In this document: in pieces, positions 3,566-41,744 of the stretch
Layout of the letters: each line of letters begins with the position of its first letter
How positions within the stretch are numbered: the stretch's first letter is position 1
Notes under the pieces: generated by a model
The model's input: only the letters and a program-made list of their open reading frames with translations
Databases searched by the model: none
What the model was told of the DNA's origin: nothing
Program-made: the position numbers and the translations under genes
Assembly (NCBI GenBank): GCA_903896015.1
Contig: CAITWF010000039.1
Location: 1-51,649, forward strand
Length of the DNA stretch: 51,649 nucleotides
Source of the DNA: an uncultured Opitutia bacterium
GTDB taxonomy: Bacteria; Verrucomicrobiota; Verrucomicrobiia; Opitutales; Opitutaceae
Reading direction: 5' to 3'

Positions 3566-5446
<1,881 letters not shown>

Positions 5447-33591: not shown

Positions 33592-34746
33592 TCAACTGAC
33601 GCCCGCGAGTTGCGGGGTCGCGCGCGCGAGGCTCGCCTTCGCGTCCTCCAGCGAGTCGTGGAACGTCCAGCCACGCGTGTCCTCGAAGCCCTTGCACTCG
33701 GAAACGAGTTGCGCGTGGCCAACCAGCGCGTAGCTGATCGCGAGTTCGCGGCAGGTCTGCATTGCCTGGAAAAGTAGCTTGATGATGCCCATGTGCAGTG
33801 CCTTCACATGGTGCAGATCGATCACGACCTTGTTGACGCCGGCATCGACCGCCTCGGCGAATTTTGGCTTCAGGTAGGCACCGACCTCTGCGAGCACGGC
33901 GGGCGCGCAATTTTCGGGCATGGTCAGCACCATCGCCTCGCCGTCGAGCGCGAAGTAGCGGAGCGAGGTGTCGAGGTTCATCGCCTTCGCGACCTTCGTC
34001 TCGAGTTCGGCGGTGTCGATGGGCTTGGTGATGACGGCGGAGAAACCGACCGTCTGCGCCTGCTGCTGCTGGGCGATTTCGGTTTTCACCACCAGGCCGA
34101 AGACGGGCGTATATTTGGTTTTTATTCCGGTGCGGATATGGCGGAAGAACGTGAACGCCGCCTCCTCCGGCAGCGAGAGGCTGACAAGAATCAAGTCCGG
34201 CGTCGCTGAGGCGCATTGCGCCACTGCCTCGGCGGTCGTGGAAACACCCCTGATTTTCCACGGCGTGTGGCGGAGGCCCTCCTGGATTTGCTGGATGATC
34301 GCGGGCTTGTCCTCGATGATGAGGAGATCGGCAGGATCGAAGATGGATCGGGCTTTCGCGGGCGCATCGGCAATGGGCTTCAGATCAAGCACACGACCGC
34401 ATTTTTCGATCAGCACTTCCTCCTTGAACGGCTTAACGAGGTAATCGCGCACGCCGATCTTGGCGATCTTCAGGACGTGTTCTCGGCCGCCTTCGGCGGT
34501 GAGCATGATGACGGGAATGCCCTTGAGTGCGGGATCCGCCTTGAGCTTCGTGAGCATCTCTACGCCGTCCATGACGGGCATTGTAACATCGAGGAGGATC
34601 AGCGCCGGCATTTCCTTCGCGGCGACGGCGAGACCTTCCACGCCGTTACCCGCTTCAATGATGTCGCAATCATAGGGCTTGAACGCCTTGCGGACGATGA
34701 TGCGGACGGTCTTTGAGTCGTCCACGGTAAGAACTTTGTAGCGCAT
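33592..34746 (-). CDS. Receiver / pseudo-receiver / STAS-like signalling protein
   Basis: A 384-residue three-part protein. The first receiver (1-120) is complete: D9/D10, phosphoacceptor D53 (ALILLDVTMP), T83 and K105 (YLVKPF). The second (140-255) keeps E145/D146 and K241 (ITKPID) but has Ser189 where the phosphoacceptor Asp should be (LILVSLSLP), so it probably cannot be phosphorylated. The last part (260-384) resembles a STAS/anti-sigma-antagonist fold (NKVVIDLHHVKALHMGIIKL). It sits 18 bases after cheX in one operon, with a terminator after it. An output by protein contact, perhaps to flagellar or adaptation partners, is inferred. Confidence 0.8.
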   Translation of the reverse strand: MRYKVLTVDDSKTVRIIVRKAFKPYDCDIIEAGNGVEGLAVAAKEMPALILLDVTMPVMDGVEMLTKLKADPALKGIPVIMLTAEGGREHVLKIAKIGVRDYLVKPFKEEVLIEKCGRVLDLKPIADAPAKARSIFDPADLLIIEDKPAIIQQIQEGLRHTPWKIRGVSTTAEAVAQCASATPDLILVSLSLPEEAAFTFFRHIRTGIKTKYTPVFGLVVKTEIAQQQQAQTVGFSAVITKPIDTAELETKVAKAMNLDTSLRYFALDGEAMVLTMPENCAPAVLAEVGAYLKPKFAEAVDAGVNKVVIDLHHVKALHMGIIKLLFQAMQTCRELAISYALVGHAQLVSECKGFEDTRGWTFHDSLEDAKASLARATPQLAGVS

Positions 34747-34764: not shown

Positions 34765-35283
34765 TTATTCTTCGGGCTGCAGGAGGATGTCGGCGACGAC
34801 CCGGTGCTCGGCGCAATCGAACTGGTAAATGTGGCGCACGATGTTGCCGACCGGCTCGATCGAAAAATTGGTACCGCGGGTGATCGTCGGGATCGTGAGT
34901 TTGCAGGGATAGCCGGCATCGCAGAGGCCGTTCTTGAAGCTGCCGACGGTCATGTTGGTGAGTTCGCCAACAGCGTCATTAATCACTTCGTCGCCCGCCT
35001 CGATGAGCTCGGCTTCGTTCATGCCGAGGAGGTGGCGGGTGCACAACTCCGCGAAGGCGAGATCGAGGTGCAGATAGATGAGGCCGTTGATGTCGCCGAC
35101 GAAACCGACGGTGCCGACCACGAGGGGGCGGCCGCTGGTGTGCGGCGAGGCGGCCTTGCTGGTGGTCTCGCCGGGGGTGCTGAAGGTAGGCACGCGGCCG
35201 AGCATCGTTTTGAAAACGTCGGTGACGGCGCGGTTGATATAGTCGCGGATGAGCGACTCGGTGATTTCCACAGTAGAGGGCAT
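34765..35283 (-). CDS. cheX: CheX-type chemotaxis phosphatase
   Basis: A 172-residue protein of the CheC/CheX/FliY phosphatase family, which dephosphorylates CheY-P. The single active helix shows the E-x-x-N pair E107 and N110 in INDAVGELTNMTVGSFKNGL, preceded by the DEVI segment and followed by the glycine-rich IPTITRGTNF strand. One such helix rather than two points to CheX and not CheC. A sigma-28-type promoter lies just upstream at 35311-35337. The next gene encodes a receiver/pseudo-receiver/STAS protein whose intact first receiver could be its substrate. Confidence 0.85.
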   Translation of the reverse strand: MPSTVEITESLIRDYINRAVTDVFKTMLGRVPTFSTPGETTSKAASPHTSGRPLVVGTVGFVGDINGLIYLHLDLAFAELCTRHLLGMNEAELIEAGDEVINDAVGELTNMTVGSFKNGLCDAGYPCKLTIPTITRGTNFSIEPVGNIVRHIYQFDCAEHRVVADILLQPEE

Positions 35284-35310: not shown

Positions 35311-35337
35311 CTATCGGCCGGATTCCCCCGCGGTTTA
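35311..35337 (-). promoter_or_regulatory. Sigma-28 (FliA) promoter of cheX
   Basis: On the minus strand TAAA (35334-35337), 15 bases, then GCCGATAG (35311-35318), against the consensus TAAA-N15-GCCGATAA: one mismatch in total. It ends 27 bases before the cheX ATG. Confidence 0.8.
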
Positions 35338-35460: not shown

Positions 35461-36930
35461 TCAAACGTCCACGGACTCGAGGCCGGCGTCGACTGGATCG
35501 CCGGCATCGCGGTATTCCTGGAGCTTGTTGCGGAGGGTGCGGATGCTGATCCCGAGGGCGGCAGCGGCCTGCGTGCGGTTGCCACCGGTCTGGCGCAGCG
35601 CGGCACGGATGGCCTGCTTTTCCAGCTCGTCGAGTTTCAAAACATGGCCGCCGCCGTCGGTCAGCGATTGCGCCGGCGCCGCTGCGGATGCCTCGAAGGA
35701 TGCAGCGGATTCCTCGACGGAATCGCCGCCCCACGGCGCCGCCGAACCCGGATCGACCGGCCCAAGATCAGGGAGGCCGAGCACCGCAGCCGTCACGGGG
35801 CGGCCGGACTCCGAGAGAATCACGGCGCGCTCGACGGTATTCTGCAGCTCGCGCACGTTGCCCGGCCAGCGATACGTGAGCATCGTGGCACGCGCGGAGT
35901 CGGCGAAGCCGGTGACTTTCACACCGTGCTTGCGCGCGAAGCGCTGCAAAAAATGTTCCGCGAGCAGCGGAATGTCCTCCACCCGCTCGCGCAGCGCGGG
36001 CACATGAACCGGGAAGACGTTGAGTCGGTAATACAGGTCCTGGCGAAACGCGCCGCTCGCCACGTGGGAAAGCAGATCGCGGTTCGAAGTGGCGATGATG
36101 CGGACGTTGACCTTGATCGTGCGGCTGCCGCCGACGCGCTCAAACTCGCGTTCCTGCAGCACGCGCAGCAGCTTCGCCTGCAGTGCAGGCGGAATTTCCG
36201 AGACTTCGTCGAGGAGGAGCGTGCCGTTGTTGGCGAGTTCGAAGCGGCCCTCGCGGCGCTCCGTCGCGCCCGTGAAAGCCCCGCGCTCGTGTCCGAAAAA
36301 TTCACTCTCGATCAGGTTTTCCTGCACGGCGGCGCAATTCACCTTGATGAATGGCTGTGCGCGGCGCGGGCTGCGGCGGAAAAATTCTCGCGAGATCATT
36401 TCCTTGCCGGTGCCGCTTTCGCCCGTCACGAGCACCGTGGCGTCGGTCGGCGCAACGCGATCGATGAGGGAACGCAGGCGCATCATCGCGGGGCTGCGGC
36501 CGACGAGCGCGCCGTCTTCGTCGAGCGAATCATCACTGAGCAGGCGGTTGACGCCGAGAAGCTGGCGGTAGGTCTGCGCCTTGCGCAGGATGATGTCGAT
36601 CTGCGAGGGCGAAAACGGTTTCAACACGTAGTCGAAAGCGCCGGCCCGCATGCAAGCAACGGCCGACTCGATCGAGCCGAAGCCAGTGACCATGACGACG
36701 AGCGGGCGTTGCGGCAGCGTCACCGAGTGCTCGAGCAGCTTGAGCCCGTCGCCATCCGGCAGCCGCAAATCGAGGAGCATCAGGTCAAACTGATCTTTTT
36801 CCAGCTGAGCGGTCGCCTCCGCGATCGTGGGGGCGCAGACGACGGGGAGCTTGTGACGCGTGAAGATGCTCTGGAGGAGATTGCGGACCACCACGTCGTC
36901 TTCGACGATGAGAATTTTCTCGAATGACAT
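35461..36930 (-). CDS. NtrC-family sigma-54-dependent response regulator
   Basis: A 489-residue activator. The receiver domain has D11/D12, phosphoacceptor D54 (MLLDLRLPDG) and K104 (YVLKPF). The AAA+ domain has Walker A GESGTGKE (170-177), the sigma-54 loop GAFTGA (217-222), Walker B LLLDEVSEIPP and WPGNVRELQNTVERAVIL. A Fis-type helix-turn-helix ends the protein (QTGGNRTQAAAALGISIRTL). ATG 36930 gives the family N-terminus; the frame continues upstream without homology. Its place in the flagellar block suggests an FlrC/FleR-like role in sigma-54 control of flagellar genes; no clear -24/-12 site was identified. Confidence 0.93.
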   Translation of the reverse strand: MSFEKILIVEDDVVVRNLLQSIFTRHKLPVVCAPTIAEATAQLEKDQFDLMLLDLRLPDGDGLKLLEHSVTLPQRPLVVMVTGFGSIESAVACMRAGAFDYVLKPFSPSQIDIILRKAQTYRQLLGVNRLLSDDSLDEDGALVGRSPAMMRLRSLIDRVAPTDATVLVTGESGTGKEMISREFFRRSPRRAQPFIKVNCAAVQENLIESEFFGHERGAFTGATERREGRFELANNGTLLLDEVSEIPPALQAKLLRVLQEREFERVGGSRTIKVNVRIIATSNRDLLSHVASGAFRQDLYYRLNVFPVHVPALRERVEDIPLLAEHFLQRFARKHGVKVTGFADSARATMLTYRWPGNVRELQNTVERAVILSESGRPVTAAVLGLPDLGPVDPGSAAPWGGDSVEESAASFEASAAAPAQSLTDGGGHVLKLDELEKQAIRAALRQTGGNRTQAAAALGISIRTLRNKLQEYRDAGDPVDAGLESVDV

Positions 36931-37047
36931 GGTGGGTGAAAAAGGGGAAATCAGCGATCCTCCAGGATGGCGGGACCACAGAGCCCCATCTAGCGATACC
37001 GCACGCGGCAGTTCAAACAAATGTTCTGCACCCCGCCGGGTCGGAAA

Positions 37048-37473
37048 CTACGCCGCCCGTCCAATCAGGCTTTGCACCTGCCGCAGGACATCAAGAGGCA
37101 TAAACGGCTTCGCCAAGTAGGCCGCAGGCCCACTCGCCGAGAGGCCGAGAGCAACATCCGAACACTCCCGCCCGCTCACGAGCAGCACCGGCAGCCCGGG
37201 GACTACCGCCCGCAGGCGTTCGCATAACGGCGCTCCTTCCGTGTCCGGCAGGCGGCCGTCAATGAACGCCAGCGCGATCGCCGGGCCGTGCTGGGCCACC
37301 GCATATTCTGCGCCGACGCCATCCATCGCCCGGACTACCCGCCAGCGACCCCGCTCCAGGAGGCGCGCGACCAGCGAGGCCACCATGTCGTCGTCATCCA
37401 CCAGCAGAATTGTATCGCGCACCGGCGCCACCGCAGGAGGCGTGGCACAATCAGCGACGAGGGAGGCAGTCAT
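37048..37473 (-). CDS. Stand-alone response-regulator receiver protein
   Basis: A 141-residue protein with one receiver domain after a 20-residue lead. It has a D-D-D-D acidic pocket (TILLVDDDDMVASLVARLLE), phosphoacceptor D72 in FIDGRLPDTEG, the S/T of VLLVSGREC and K122 in AYLAKPF. No output domain is present, so it acts like CheY, Spo0F-type relays or as a phosphate sink. It lies between the NtrC-type gene and the divergent unknown gene. An in-frame GTG start variant is possible but less likely. Confidence 0.85.
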   Translation of the reverse strand: MTASLVADCATPPAVAPVRDTILLVDDDDMVASLVARLLERGRWRVVRAMDGVGAEYAVAQHGPAIALAFIDGRLPDTEGAPLCERLRAVVPGLPVLLVSGRECSDVALGLSASGPAAYLAKPFMPLDVLRQVQSLIGRAA

Positions 37474-37518: not shown

Positions 37519-37545
37519 TAAAGCCGCACCTCCCCGCGCCGATGA
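37519..37545 (+). promoter_or_regulatory. Sigma-28 (FliA) promoter of the 37562 gene
   Basis: TAAA (37519-37522), exactly 15 bases, then GCCGATGA (37538-37545): one mismatch from the consensus. It lies 16 bases before the ATG, giving a very short leader. Confidence 0.75.
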
Positions 37546-37561
37546 CTGGCATTGAATCCTT

Positions 37562-37975
37562 ATGCGCCTGCTCTCCTTCATCTCTGAAATCGAACGCGCG
37601 TTGCTGGCCGAGTCACCCGTCGTCGAAGGCGGCGCCTGGGAAAGCACGCGTATGGTAAACTTTCATTCGCATCTGGCCCGGCTTTCGCTCGTCGCGCGTC
37701 CGACGGCCGAGCTACCGATCGCGGGCGGGGGAATTTTCCTCCAGAGCTTCGCGCTCGCCGACGGCTCGCTCTGTCTGAAGGCGACCTTGACGTGGCGCGA
37801 CAGTGAAGCCCAGACGGTGATCCCGGTCTATGATGTGCCCGGTCTGAACTGGAAACTCGCCGCCTCGCGCATCGCGGGTGCCTTCCTCGAAGGCCCAGCT
37901 TCGGCGACGATCACCACGATGGTGCCGGCGACAATGGACGCCCACCTCGATCCGCTCGTCGCGGTTGCGGGCTGA
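37562..37975 (+). CDS. Unknown protein under a sigma-28 promoter
   Basis: A 137-residue soluble protein with no family I recognise. It begins MRLLSFISEIERALLAESPV and has the central strand-rich part HSHLARLSLVARPTAELPIA, SLCLKATLTWRDSEAQTVIP, and a C-terminal PATMDAHLDPLVAVAG. No signal peptide, membrane helix or cysteine pattern stands out. It stands alone on the plus strand among minus-strand flagellar genes, with its own FliA-type promoter and a strong terminator 22 bases after its stop. A late flagellar or chemotaxis role is inferred from that promoter only. Confidence 0.75.
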   Translation: MRLLSFISEIERALLAESPVVEGGAWESTRMVNFHSHLARLSLVARPTAELPIAGGGIFLQSFALADGSLCLKATLTWRDSEAQTVIPVYDVPGLNWKLAASRIAGAFLEGPASATITTMVPATMDAHLDPLVAVAG

Positions 37976-37997
37976 ACGCGATATTCTGCCTTTCCTG

Positions 37998-38026
37998 AGG
38001 CGACGGCTCACAGCCGTCGCCTTTTT
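37998..38026 (+). terminator. Rho-independent terminator after the 37562 gene
   Basis: A perfect 11-bp stem, AGGCGACGGCT (37998-38008) with AGCCGTCGCCT (38012-38022), 3-base loop, then TTTT. It lies between convergent genes. Confidence 0.9.
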
Positions 38027-38030
38027 GGTC

Positions 38031-38396
38031 TCAGCCCACCGCGCTCAATTGGCGCGACACCGGTGCGCACCGGCTGCCGTAAACGGGGGCAATTTGCCGC
38101 ACGCGACGGCGCCCTTCGTTCGTTTCCGCGAGCGCCTCTCGCGTTTTCTCAATCTGTTCGGAAAGCCATTCGCCGGTCTGCCGGCGGCGTTCAATCAGAC
38201 CTTGGAGACGCGCGCGCAGCGCCGGATCGGTGACGTCCGAGGCGTGCGCACCGAGCAATGCGACGAGCGGCGACGCGCGCTGCTGGAGCTCAATCACGGC
38301 AGGGAAATCGCGTGCCTCGAGCGTGGCGGCCTCACGGGCCACCAGGTCTTCGAGCGCGGCGACGAGCCGGACGCAGGTTTGCGCGGGCGCTTCCAT
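38031..38396 (-). CDS. FlgN/FliT-like flagellar export chaperone (putative)
   Basis: A 121-residue helical protein, taken from ATG 38396, which follows the fliS stop by 2 bases. The sequence is nearly all amphipathic helix: CVRLVAALEDLVAREAATLE, RDFPAVIELQQRASPLVALL, RARLQGLIERRRQTGEWLSE. FlgN and FliT chaperones have this size, helix content and lack of strong motifs, so the call rests on position after fliS and on composition. An upstream in-frame start (38465) would overlap fliS. Last gene of the flgM-fliS operon. Confidence 0.65.
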   Translation of the reverse strand: MEAPAQTCVRLVAALEDLVAREAATLEARDFPAVIELQQRASPLVALLGAHASDVTDPALRARLQGLIERRRQTGEWLSEQIEKTREALAETNEGRRRVRQIAPVYGSRCAPVSRQLSAVG

Positions 38397-38398
38397 GT

Positions 38399-38827
38399 TC
38401 AGGCGACGCTGTGCAGCCGCTCCGAACCGTTCTGAGAATCCCGTTTCGAGAGCATCTCGGCCCACGCATCGCGCAGGTCGCGGACGAGTTTCTCCACTTC
38501 CCGCACCGGCTCGGGTTGCTTGCGAATGTTCGCCTCAAAGAGGCGGCGCAGGTGAAATTCGTAGAGGCGGTTCATCGTCTGGGCAATCTCGCCGCCCGCC
38601 TCGAAGTTGAGTCCACCCTGAAGCTCGCGGATAATCGCCTGCGCTTTTTGCAGCTGGGTGTTGATCGTCTCAATGCGCTGCACGTCTGCCTCGGGCCGCG
38701 CAAACGCGTCGAGGGCGATCGCGAGCGCCTTGAGGGCCCCGTCGTAAAGCATCAGCACGAGCTGGCCCGGGCTGGCGGTGAGGACGGCATTGGCGCGGTA
38801 GGTCCGCGCGTAACCTTGGGCGAGCAT
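38399..38827 (-). CDS. fliS: Flagellar export chaperone FliS
   Basis: A 142-residue four-helix protein that binds the flagellin C-terminus before export. It shows the N-terminal Y-x-R-T-Y-R motif (GYARTYRANAVLTASPGQLV), the conserved LMLYDGALKAL and the helix INTQLQKAQAIIRELQGGLN, followed by IAQTMNRLYEFHLRRLFEAN. Together with fliD at 39948-41675 this identifies a filament assembly block. It lies 8 bases after the FlgM-like gene and just before the FlgN-like gene. Confidence 0.93.
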   Translation of the reverse strand: MLAQGYARTYRANAVLTASPGQLVLMLYDGALKALAIALDAFARPEADVQRIETINTQLQKAQAIIRELQGGLNFEAGGEIAQTMNRLYEFHLRRLFEANIRKQPEPVREVEKLVRDLRDAWAEMLSKRDSQNGSERLHSVA

Positions 38828-38835
38828 GGAAACGC

Positions 38836-39120
38836 TCAGGACGCGTCCTCGCTCAGATCCGGCGACGCCAGAATTTTTCCGGCGACGCTTTGAATGATCG
38901 AGGCGGACGGGTAACTGGGATCGGCGGCGAGCGCGCGGCCGCGTTCGACGACTTCGGGGCGGATTTCCGGCTGGCGGTCGAGCGCGGAGCGCAGATACGC
39001 AGCGCTCTGTGTCGAGATTTGATCCGGGCGGGGCGTGTTGGGACGCGCAGTGACCGGCGCGGGCGTGGAAACGAGTTCCGGGCGGGCGGCGCGGTCGGAG
39101 GAGGACGTTGAGGAGATCAT
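38836..39120 (-). CDS. FlgM-like anti-sigma-28 factor (putative)
   Basis: A 94-residue protein. The first 35 residues are low-complexity Ser/Pro/Ala/Arg, as expected for the disordered N-terminus of FlgM. The second half, DQISTQSAAYLRSALDRQPE followed by IRPEVVERGRALAADPSYPS and ASIIQSVAGKIL, follows the FlgM pattern of a helix, a P-E/D-I/V-R-x-E-x-V turn and a C-terminal I-A-x-K-I/L helix. It is first in an operon with fliS and sits under a near-perfect sigma-28 promoter, as flgM usually does. The family call is my inference and would need a profile search to confirm. Confidence 0.6.
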   Translation of the reverse strand: MISSTSSSDRAARPELVSTPAPVTARPNTPRPDQISTQSAAYLRSALDRQPEIRPEVVERGRALAADPSYPSASIIQSVAGKILASPDLSEDAS

Positions 39121-39192: not shown

Positions 39193-39219
39193 ATATCGGC
39201 CAAGGCACGCTAAACTTTA
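39193..39219 (-). promoter_or_regulatory. Sigma-28 (FliA) promoter of the flgM-like/fliS operon
   Basis: On the minus strand TAAAGTTT (39212-39219), 11 bases, then GCCGATAT (39193-39200). This equals the long sigma-28 consensus TAAAGTTT-N11-GCCGATAA with one mismatch. It is 72 bases before the operon's first ATG and overlaps the stop end of the lipoprotein gene. Confidence 0.85.
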
Positions 39220-39942
39220 GCGCGTCAGGCGAAAGAATTTTTCCGGCTTCGGCGGCGGAGGGGGCGCTGCGACGACAGGCGGAAGCGTGGCGAACATGGC
39301 GTCCGCCGCATACTCCGCGAAACGGGCCGGCGACTGGAGAACGCCGGGGCTGAGATCGGCGGGCACGCCGCCCCGATCGGCGCCGAGGAAATGCTGGCGA
39401 GCGCTGTTGGCAACCGCGGGGTCGTCGGCGGAAAAGACGTTGTCAAAGGTCCACACGAGGCGCGGCGTAGTGGAGAGTGTGGCAAGCTTGGCGCGCAGCC
39501 CGAGCCCGATCGGGCGATACGGGCGAAAGACCGTGATGTCGATAAACAGCACGCCATCGGCCGCAAACTCGCGCTGGATCGTCGCGAGAAAATCGTGCGG
39601 CAGTGCGGCGACGGAGGAGATTTCCTCGAAGTGAAACTCCCGCCGGCTCTGTTCGCGCGTGAGCGGCACGACTTCAAAGCGATGCTGCTGCTGGAGCGCC
39701 GCGACTATCACGGGATCGAGCGCGGCGACCGTCTCGACCGGCGCGAGCGTGCCGCCGCAGACGGGCAGCACGACGACGCGACGCATGCCGCCCAGGCTGG
39801 CGTCGCCAACATGGTTACTCGGGGTGAAGAATGGCCCAAGCCGCGCGGGATCGTCGAACGCGGGCGTCATGCAGCCGGAGAGCACAGCGAGCGCGCCGCA
39901 TGCGGCCGCGAGCAGACAGGAAACGTAGAGTGTGCGGTTCAT
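39217..39942 (-). CDS. Putative outer-membrane lipoprotein downstream of fliD
   Basis: A 241-residue protein with a lipoprotein signal, LLAAACGALAVLSGCMTPAF; LSGC is a good lipobox. The domain RRVVVLPVCGGTLAPVETVA, ALQQQHRFEVVPLTREQSRR, ADGVLFIDITVFRPYRPIGL resembles the GNA1162/CsgG-like family of lipoproteins with a conserved beta sheet and a DGVL motif. It ends in a run of prolines (AAPPPPPKPEKFFRLTR). It starts 5 bases after the fliD stop and shares that transcript, so a flagellar or surface role is possible. Confidence 0.75.
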   Translation of the reverse strand: MNRTLYVSCLLAAACGALAVLSGCMTPAFDDPARLGPFFTPSNHVGDASLGGMRRVVVLPVCGGTLAPVETVAALDPVIVAALQQQHRFEVVPLTREQSRREFHFEEISSVAALPHDFLATIQREFAADGVLFIDITVFRPYRPIGLGLRAKLATLSTTPRLVWTFDNVFSADDPAVANSARQHFLGADRGGVPADLSPGVLQSPARFAEYAADAMFATLPPVVAAPPPPPKPEKFFRLTR

Positions 39943-39947
39943 GAAGA

Positions 39948-41675
39948 TTAGCCGGTCGTGGAGCTCTTGAAGAAGGTGTTGGTGAGATAAGTCTGCTGGC
40001 TTTGCGCACTGGACTGAGCGTCGAGCATGGCGATGAAGGAGTTCGTCAGGTTGGTGCGCTCGTCGTCGAGCTTCGATTGGATCGTGGCAATCTGCGTGGT
40101 CAGATCAGTGTTTGATTGAGTTATGTTGTTTTGCTCCGTCGTATTGGAAGATAGCGCATTGGTCAGGTAGCCGAAGAGCTTGGGCACGAAGCCGGCGGTA
40201 GGGCTGAGAAAAAATGACTGCACGTCGTCCGGGTGATCGCTGAGCGCGGTGGCGAGTTTACCGCTGTCCTTCACGACGAGCTGGCCGGAGGTGCTGTTGA
40301 AGTCGATCCCGAGATCGTTGAGGCGCGAGACTGAGCCAGTGAGCCCGCCGACCGCCTCGAACGCGAGGGATTGGAGTTTGCTGCCCCAAGCCTCGACCTC
40401 GCGATTCCCCGAAAGCACCGAGGTGGTGACATTGCTGCCGGTGACAGTGATATTGGTATCCGTGTCGATCAGGGACTGCAGGGAGTTAAACTTAGTGATG
40501 AAATCCTGAATCGAGGAACTCATCGTCGCCGTGTCGCTCGAGACTTGCAGGGTCTGAGTGTCCAGACTGTTCACCGTCACACTGAGTCCGGAGATGCCGT
40601 GGACCGAAGAGGTGAGCGTATTGCTGGTGCTCGAAAGCGTGGGGCCGTCGTTGACTTTAAAGAGTGCGTTCTTGCCGTGCAGGAGCGTCCCACCCGTGCC
40701 GGCACTGAGTCCGAGCGCGTCGACCAGACCGCCGGACGCCTCAAGGGCGCCGATGCCGGTGTCGCCGGTGTTCTTGTTTGTAAGCAGGAGTCGGTCGTTG
40801 GCCGAATCGTAGGAGGCGACGACGCCGGCGCTGGTGCCGTTGATCCGGTTGATCACACGTGCAATCGAATCGGTGTTGATATTGTAGTTTATCGTCACGC
40901 CGTTGAGCGTGAAGCTGCCGTTGCCGGAGCTGTCGACAGCGGTGAGCGCGCGGGCGAGGCCGCTGCTGGCGATCGGCGCCGTCGTGGCGAGCGTGCCGAG
41001 CCGGGCGGCGCTGCTCACGCTGGTGGTGCCATTGTTGGCGAGCTTCATGACCGAGAGAAAATTGCTCGTGTCGTTGGCGGCACCAAGGACGAGTTCGCCG
41101 CTCGACTGGGAAAGGGTGATGCCATCGCCGGTCGGATCGTAGCTCGCGGTCACGCTGGGATCGGCGGCGGAAATTTTGTCGAACACATCCTGGAGCGAAT
41201 CGGTGAGCGCGACCGTGACGGTGTGGCCATTGACACTAAACGTGCCCGCCGACACGGCCGTCGCGGTGCGCATCGAGGCGAGCGTGAGTCCAGAAACGTC
41301 GCTGGTCGGCGCCAGGGTGCTGGAAATGTTAGTGGCACCCTTGAGCTGGGCGGCCGTGGCGAGTTGCGAGACGGCGAACTTGTAGCTGCCGAGCGGGGCG
41401 CCAGTGACGGAGCTGGACTGCCACGTAGTATTGGCCGTGTCGGAGCTGACCGTGCGAGCCGCGAAGACATTTCCCGTGCGGATCGACTGGATCGAGTCCT
41501 GCACGGCTTGCAACGAGGTTTGCACCGCTGCGAGCGCAGTGACCTGGTCGGTGTTTGTCTTTTGTTGGGTCTGCAGCGTGGTGATCGGGATACTATCAGC
41601 CGCGATGAGTTGATCGACGACGGATTTCCAGTCGAACGCCTGGTTGGAGAGGAGGCCTGATATTTGGATGCCCAT
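39948..41675 (-). CDS. fliD: Flagellar filament-capping protein FliD (hook-associated protein 2)
   Basis: A 575-residue cap protein that helps flagellin fold at the filament tip. The N-terminal coil domain matches FliD (SNQAFDWKSVVDQLIAADSI, then PITTLQTQQKTNTDQVTALA). Repeated FliD-type D2/D3 regions follow, with KFAVSQLATAAQLKG and two similar ADPSVTASYDPTGDGITLSQ / SAGVVASYDSANDRLLLTNK blocks, and the C-terminal coil domain LTTQIATIQSKLDDERTNLT ends in ...QTYLTNTFFKSS. Length is on the long side for FliD. A sigma-28 promoter is 43 bases upstream. It is followed by the lipoprotein gene. Confidence 0.93.
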   Translation of the reverse strand: MGIQISGLLSNQAFDWKSVVDQLIAADSIPITTLQTQQKTNTDQVTALAAVQTSLQAVQDSIQSIRTGNVFAARTVSSDTANTTWQSSSVTGAPLGSYKFAVSQLATAAQLKGATNISSTLAPTSDVSGLTLASMRTATAVSAGTFSVNGHTVTVALTDSLQDVFDKISAADPSVTASYDPTGDGITLSQSSGELVLGAANDTSNFLSVMKLANNGTTSVSSAARLGTLATTAPIASSGLARALTAVDSSGNGSFTLNGVTINYNINTDSIARVINRINGTSAGVVASYDSANDRLLLTNKNTGDTGIGALEASGGLVDALGLSAGTGGTLLHGKNALFKVNDGPTLSSTSNTLTSSVHGISGLSVTVNSLDTQTLQVSSDTATMSSSIQDFITKFNSLQSLIDTDTNITVTGSNVTTSVLSGNREVEAWGSKLQSLAFEAVGGLTGSVSRLNDLGIDFNSTSGQLVVKDSGKLATALSDHPDDVQSFFLSPTAGFVPKLFGYLTNALSSNTTEQNNITQSNTDLTTQIATIQSKLDDERTNLTNSFIAMLDAQSSAQSQQTYLTNTFFKSSTTG

Positions 41676-41717: not shown

Positions 41718-41744
41718 ATATCGGCACCAGAGCGGGCGGATTAA
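41718..41744 (-). promoter_or_regulatory. Sigma-28 (FliA) promoter of fliD
   Basis: On the minus strand TTAA (41741-41744), exactly 15 bases, then GCCGATAT (41718-41725): two mismatches to TAAA-N15-GCCGATAA. It ends 42 bases before the fliD ATG. Confidence 0.8.

Follow-up and report, generated by a model that had tools for sequence, protein, structure and literature searches.

The 137-aa gene (P0001) at positions 37562-37975 (+) of the window, the 51,649-nt stretch of DNA from an uncultured Opitutia bacterium analysed here, is very probably a class III flagellar or chemotaxis gene, and it is a lineage-specific addition to the flagellar set in flagellated Opitutaceae of one clade. ORF analysis of the window identified a real reading frame of this position and length, opposed to both flanking genes (37048-37473 and 38031-38465), which lie on the minus strand. 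The encoded protein shares 106 of 136 residues with a homologue from the same genus, and the nucleotide differences between the two genes fall mostly on third codon positions (29/13/75 by codon position), with a dN of 0.17 and a dS of 1.70; purifying selection acts on the gene. It is present as a single copy in its own genome, and the protein has a pI of 5.2. An earlier note on this DNA had described a lone transcription unit with a one-mismatch sigma-28 site and a terminator, antiparallel to its neighbours, and the site, the terminator and the strands were all recovered in our analysis.

The promoter-like site, TAAA-N15-GCCGATGA (37519-37545, +), was located by pattern match, ends 16 nt ahead of the ATG and is one mismatch off the sigma-28 (FliA) consensus, TAAA-N15-GCCGATAA. 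A FliA-like site by itself is not more than chance: the genome contains 61 sites with at most one mismatch to a shortened sigma-28 pattern versus 71 for the reversed control, and the pattern is not enriched genome-wide. The window holds 4 of these 61 sites, with ~0.6 expected from its length. The promoter is more than chance because its core is conserved across homologous upstream regions. We compared the 110 nt before the start of 47 distinct homologous proteins, the regions being related to each other; the set comprises part of the 95 gene-positive genomes plus further members, whose starts, some of them GTG, TTG or CTG, were set manually. The core TAAA-N15-GCCGAT was exact in 13 of the 47 regions, carried one mismatch in 18 and two or more in 16. 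The 31 of 47 regions that are exact or one mismatch away compare with a mean of 0.22 (largest 2) in dinucleotide shuffles and 0 for the reversed pattern, and divergent homologues keep the site too. Additionally, FliA is encoded on another contig of the same genome (TIGR02479, 232.6 bits, cut-off 189.6). Near the genome's two other exact sigma-28 matches (L077 and L078), no flagellar gene was recognised by eye in the ORF lists. Downstream of the 137-aa gene, an intrinsic terminator (37997-38023, +; 12 pairs by scan) has a fold energy of -23.4 kcal/mol (z -5.1). A comparable terminator follows only 11 of the 46 homologues whose downstream sequence is long enough (20 mononucleotide shuffles: mean 0.5, largest 2), so it is not general among homologues.

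The gene sits among flagellar and chemotaxis neighbours. On its divergent side lies a single receiver-domain protein (37048-37473, -; Pfam Response_reg 1.5e-13), which was detected in only part of the homologous loci, followed by an NtrC-type sigma-54-dependent response regulator assigned by Pfam (35461-37020, -), the most constant divergent neighbour. Beyond it are a CheX-like CheY-P phosphatase (34765-35283, -; Pfam CheX 1.2e-20), with a one-mismatch FliA-like site at 35311-35337, and a protein (33592-34746, -) that matches the receiver domain in two stretches (Response_reg 1.1e-39) and STAS weakly (21.2 bits, cut-off 22.6). The flagellar role of the sigma-54 regulator would follow from its place; among NCBIfam models AtoC ranks best, then NtrC, ZraR, FlbD and FlgR lower, all below curated cut-offs. 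The convergent neighbour is a FliT/FlgN-like protein (38031-38465, -) with weak matches below cut-offs (Pfam FliT 0.051; FlgN 0.0086 and 0.078 for two homologues), and it is followed by FliS (38399-38827, -; Pfam 7.3e-38), a probable divergent FlgM (38836-39120, -; one-mismatch FliA-like site at 39193-39219) and FliD (39948-41675, -; Pfam FliD_C 5e-32, FliD_N 3.5e-15; two-mismatch FliA-like site at 41718-41744). The gene that separates fliD from the flgM-like gene (39217-39942, -) has no Pfam match, and its product starts with what by eye resembles a lipobox, LSGC; this gene adjoins the two in loci with and without the 137-aa gene.

This arrangement recurs in homologous loci. The sigma-54 regulator is found head-to-head with the 137-aa gene within 3 kb in 29 of 31 loci, the exceptions being L058, at a contig edge, and L132; 28 of these loci are divergent as called, and the apparent convergence in L073 is a stop-to-stop ORF effect, with the gene starting at 4966 and the regulator ending at 4824. 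CheX and the receiver-STAS gene occur within 3 kb in 22 of 31 loci, and in six of the 31 (L124, L126, L134, L135, L136 and L137) the 137-aa gene is directly followed by both on the same strand. CheX was not detected at the threshold used in nine of the 31, some of which end at contig edges. FliS is present in 19 of 31 loci, in 18 of them within 3 kb, and the FliT-like gene is present in 15; the 137-aa gene is convergent with FliS in 16 loci and with the FliT-like gene in 15. FliD shares a contig with the gene in 68 of 91 genomes, lies no more than 6 kb away in 61 of those 68 and is on the opposite strand in 54 of the 61. Because the regulator and CheX are linked in 29/31 and 22/31 loci versus 19/31 for FliS and 15/31 for the FliT-like gene, the linkage is steadier with the sigma-54 regulator/CheX group than with fliS, fliT and fliD, and it points away from the filament. 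The regulator is also kept in six of nine loci from flagellated lineages that have no 137-aa gene, and the module therefore works without it. The suggestion of the earlier note that the gene encodes a late flagellar or chemotaxis component is supported by the conserved sigma-28 site, the encoded FliA and these neighbours. As to the role of the protein, we tentatively favour a cytosolic protein that would act as adaptor or regulator within the module of sigma-54 regulator and CheX, a plausible reading that we would place somewhat short of probable. The nine loci without detected CheX, the retention of the regulator where the gene is absent, the AtoC ranking of the regulator and the FliS and FliT-like neighbours, which suit a chaperone equally well, count against it.

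The protein itself belongs to no family in the libraries searched, and the earlier note had recognised none either: the 137-aa sequence matched 0 families in Pfam and 0 in NCBIfam. When 23 members were searched against Pfam with an E limit of 1, six families were matched by one member each (best 0.0099), none of them YbjN or a type III chaperone, while a PHROGs scan of the same 23 members gave weak single-member matches only and PDB sequence searches with the family gave nothing convincing. Two AlphaFold models were built from overlapping alignments with shared members, one for the window protein (pLDDT 81 on average and around 90 over most of the core) and one for a member 43% identical to it (75.6 on average). 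Both models agree on a helix, five strands, a helix and a low-confidence tail, with no helix between strands 3 and 4; in the window protein the predicted core spans residues 3-110 and the tail residues 115-137, ending in PLVAVAG. Foldseek returned nothing at E up to 0.001 against the PDB and viral models. In structural alignment, the second half of the alpha and beta subunits of actin capping protein, CapZ, came top for both models, with Z 8.7 and 3.6 A over 100 residues for the window model and Z 9.9 and 3.1 A over 113 residues for the second.

The likeness to CapZ lies in the succession of a helix, a five-stranded sheet, a helix and then a C-terminal extension; the CapZ rows, however, share 2-11% identity with our proteins, and CapZ is a eukaryotic heterodimer that binds actin. 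The best Z without true relatives is usually 7 to 8, and the CapZ values of 8.7-9.9 are somewhat above this. The CapZ-like fold may be a common arrangement, and the likeness shows no function. In the 137-aa protein, the linker after residue 112 is variable and the last four residues are small, with 74-89% A/G/S/V/T by position versus 43-64% at positions 8 to 20 from the C-terminal end. Non-polar tails of a similar kind end the receiver-STAS protein (QLAGVS), the FliT-like protein (RQLSAVG) and FliS (RLHSVA). The tail patterns were written after the tails had been seen, so the following counts are no tests: the strict pattern occurs in 2 of 334 called genes in a sample of the own genome, both of them from this cluster, where the FliT-like gene escaped the gene caller, and in 7/15 FliT-like, 9/20 FliS, 3/22 receiver-STAS and 2/47 proteins of the 137-aa family, and the looser pattern in 19/47 of the 137-aa family versus 7/334 called genes. 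CapZ is a dimer whose subunits build a common sheet and carry mobile extensions at their C-termini. One conceivable elaboration, which we consider unlikely, is that a bacterial capping-protein-like fold was recruited into the flagellar regulon; as a dimer, it would dock through the conserved non-polar ends of two mobile tails, ends that FliS, the FliT-like protein and the receiver-STAS protein show in looser form, on one common partner (e.g., the export gate or a protease), with late products handled together and a report passed to the sigma-54 regulator.

The main rival to the adaptor or regulator reading is a flagellar export chaperone or co-chaperone that would bind a late substrate, or the FliS and FliT-like proteins, ahead of type III export and would have an alpha/beta fold in place of the usual helical one; we regard it as rather doubtful. 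The convergence with the FliT-like gene and FliS noted above, with FliA-like sites at both, speaks for it, as do the pI and the loose likeness of the tail to those of FliS and the FliT-like protein. DR_1245, a small two-layer alpha/beta protein like ours, also appears among the first model's structural matches (Z 6.8; 98 residues aligned at 3.9 A), and one report describes it as reminiscent of type III chaperones (PMC3575483). According to the same report, YbjN and class I type III secretion chaperones share an alpha-beta3-alpha-beta2-alpha topology (PMC3575483), whose middle helix is missing from the topology predicted for the 137-aa protein; a report on AmyR bears on this comparison with the YbjN middle helix (PMC5398634). 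Membership in the YbjN/class I chaperone group, which the DR_1245 match had prompted, was dropped on this topology, and DR_1245 is not in the best 50 structural-alignment rows for the second model. The 137-aa gene also directly precedes cheX in the six divergent loci named above, which speaks against a chaperone. The flagellar chaperones FliS, FliT and FlgN are all-helical; the 137-aa protein resembles them as a product of neighbouring late genes with FliA-like sites, but it has five predicted strands and no sequence match to them.

The distribution of the gene follows that of flagella. A profile of 23 members detected it in 95 of 252 Opitutaceae genomes, and of the 387 genomes sampled from the phylum, Opitutaceae included, 17 were positive and every one of these was Opitutaceae, in line with the lineage specificity that had been raised as a possibility. 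The first protein search, covering 95 relatives, gave 23 positives and none among 34 relatives from the order's other families. FliD was found in 123 of the 252 Opitutaceae genomes; 91 genomes have the gene and FliD, 4 the gene only, 32 FliD only and 125 neither (Fisher p 3e-35, uncorrected for relatedness). The gene is thus present in 91 of 123 FliD-positive and 4 of 129 FliD-negative genomes, and three of these four have FlhA, so homologues are not widespread in non-flagellated relatives. The fourth (G126, 86% complete) has no match to FliD or FlhA, and at its locus (L128) it retains the 137-aa gene together with the sigma-54 regulator, CheX and receiver-STAS genes; either the assembly has a gap here or the module has outlived the flagellum. 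Of the 32 FliD-only genomes, ten fall in genera where others have the gene, and they may be losses or assembly gaps. A FliD tree was built from 29 chosen loci, 20 with the gene and 9 from the 32 FliD-positive genomes without it, the ten same-genus FliD-only genomes being outside the tree. Gene-positive and gene-negative rows are split by one branch (support 100/99), and therefore one gain or one loss explains these 29 rows. No diverged copy was found in nine flagellated-lineage loci without the gene (best E 1.4; reversed decoys 2.1). In G039, the second copy, at L024, is interrupted by a stop and was excluded from set A1, and an intact copy lies on another contig.

G126 and the 32 FliD-positive genomes without a copy, including the ten from otherwise gene-positive genera, would be compatible with a FliA-driven gene of non-flagellar function that is carried along by linkage. 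Its absence from 125 of 129 FliD-negative genomes and the confinement of all phylum-wide positives to one family argue against this, and we consider such a function improbable. A structural or exported late component, such as a filament, cap or motor accessory, is in our view very unlikely: the FliA-like promoter and the position of fliD within 6 kb in 61 of 68 one-contig genomes would suit it, but the protein opens almost at once with the conserved helix of the predicted folded domain, and neither a signal peptide nor a membrane helix was seen by eye. This N-terminal helix is among the best conserved parts of the protein and, being conserved within the folded domain, does not suggest an export signal.

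The 94-aa gene at 38836-39120, which sits between the putative lipoprotein gene and fliS, looks like a probable diverged FlgM, the anti-sigma-28 factor. FlgM is the only Pfam family matched by its 24 aligned family members (5/24, best 0.052), the NCBIfam FlgM model matches 4/24 (best 0.027), and a PDB profile search gave two weak matches, the second being a negative regulator of flagellin synthesis (E 0.52). The Pfam FlgM model detects no credible FlgM in the own genome (best E 2.33), and flgM may therefore be overlooked in Opitutaceae. No FlgM motif was matched by Pfam in the 137-aa protein. A second anti-sigma-28 factor or FliA modulator would fit a small, FliA-linked late gene with one copy in its genome, but this role is weakened by the FlgM-like gene three genes away and by the predicted compact alpha/beta domain, which is unlike FlgM, and it is the least probable of the roles considered here.

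As a cytosolic adaptor or regulator, the small, soluble 137-aa protein would be a late product of flagellar assembly, its gene being transcribed by the FliA form of RNA polymerase; the neighbouring fliD, cheX and flgM-like/fliS operon seem to be FliA-transcribed as well. The protein would stay in the cytosol, where its likeliest partner would be either the NtrC-type sigma-54 regulator or the pair of CheX and the receiver-STAS protein. Through it, late flagellar expression could exert feedback on chemotaxis signalling or on the regulator that acts earlier, and its non-polar C-terminal end may be a docking or turnover signal. A functional analogue may be FliX of Caulobacter, reportedly a modulator of the sigma-54 activator FlbD and, like the 137-aa protein, a small flagellar protein of restricted lineage distribution that is associated with such an activator. 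This analogy is one of function only, and the regulation of FliX appears to differ from that of the 137-aa gene.

FliA regulons are generally taken to comprise familiar genes for the filament, the motor and chemotaxis. Among the titles listed by our search of the open literature, none concerned late flagellar genes of Opitutaceae or the 137-aa gene, most subscription papers being outside its coverage. What is new here is a family of proteins that the searched libraries do not match, inside a regulon of a known kind. In Opitutaceae the FliA regulon has an additional member that is linked with a sigma-54 regulator and in many loci with CheX, and the 137-aa gene offers a concrete and testable starting point for the study of flagellar control in Verrucomicrobiota.
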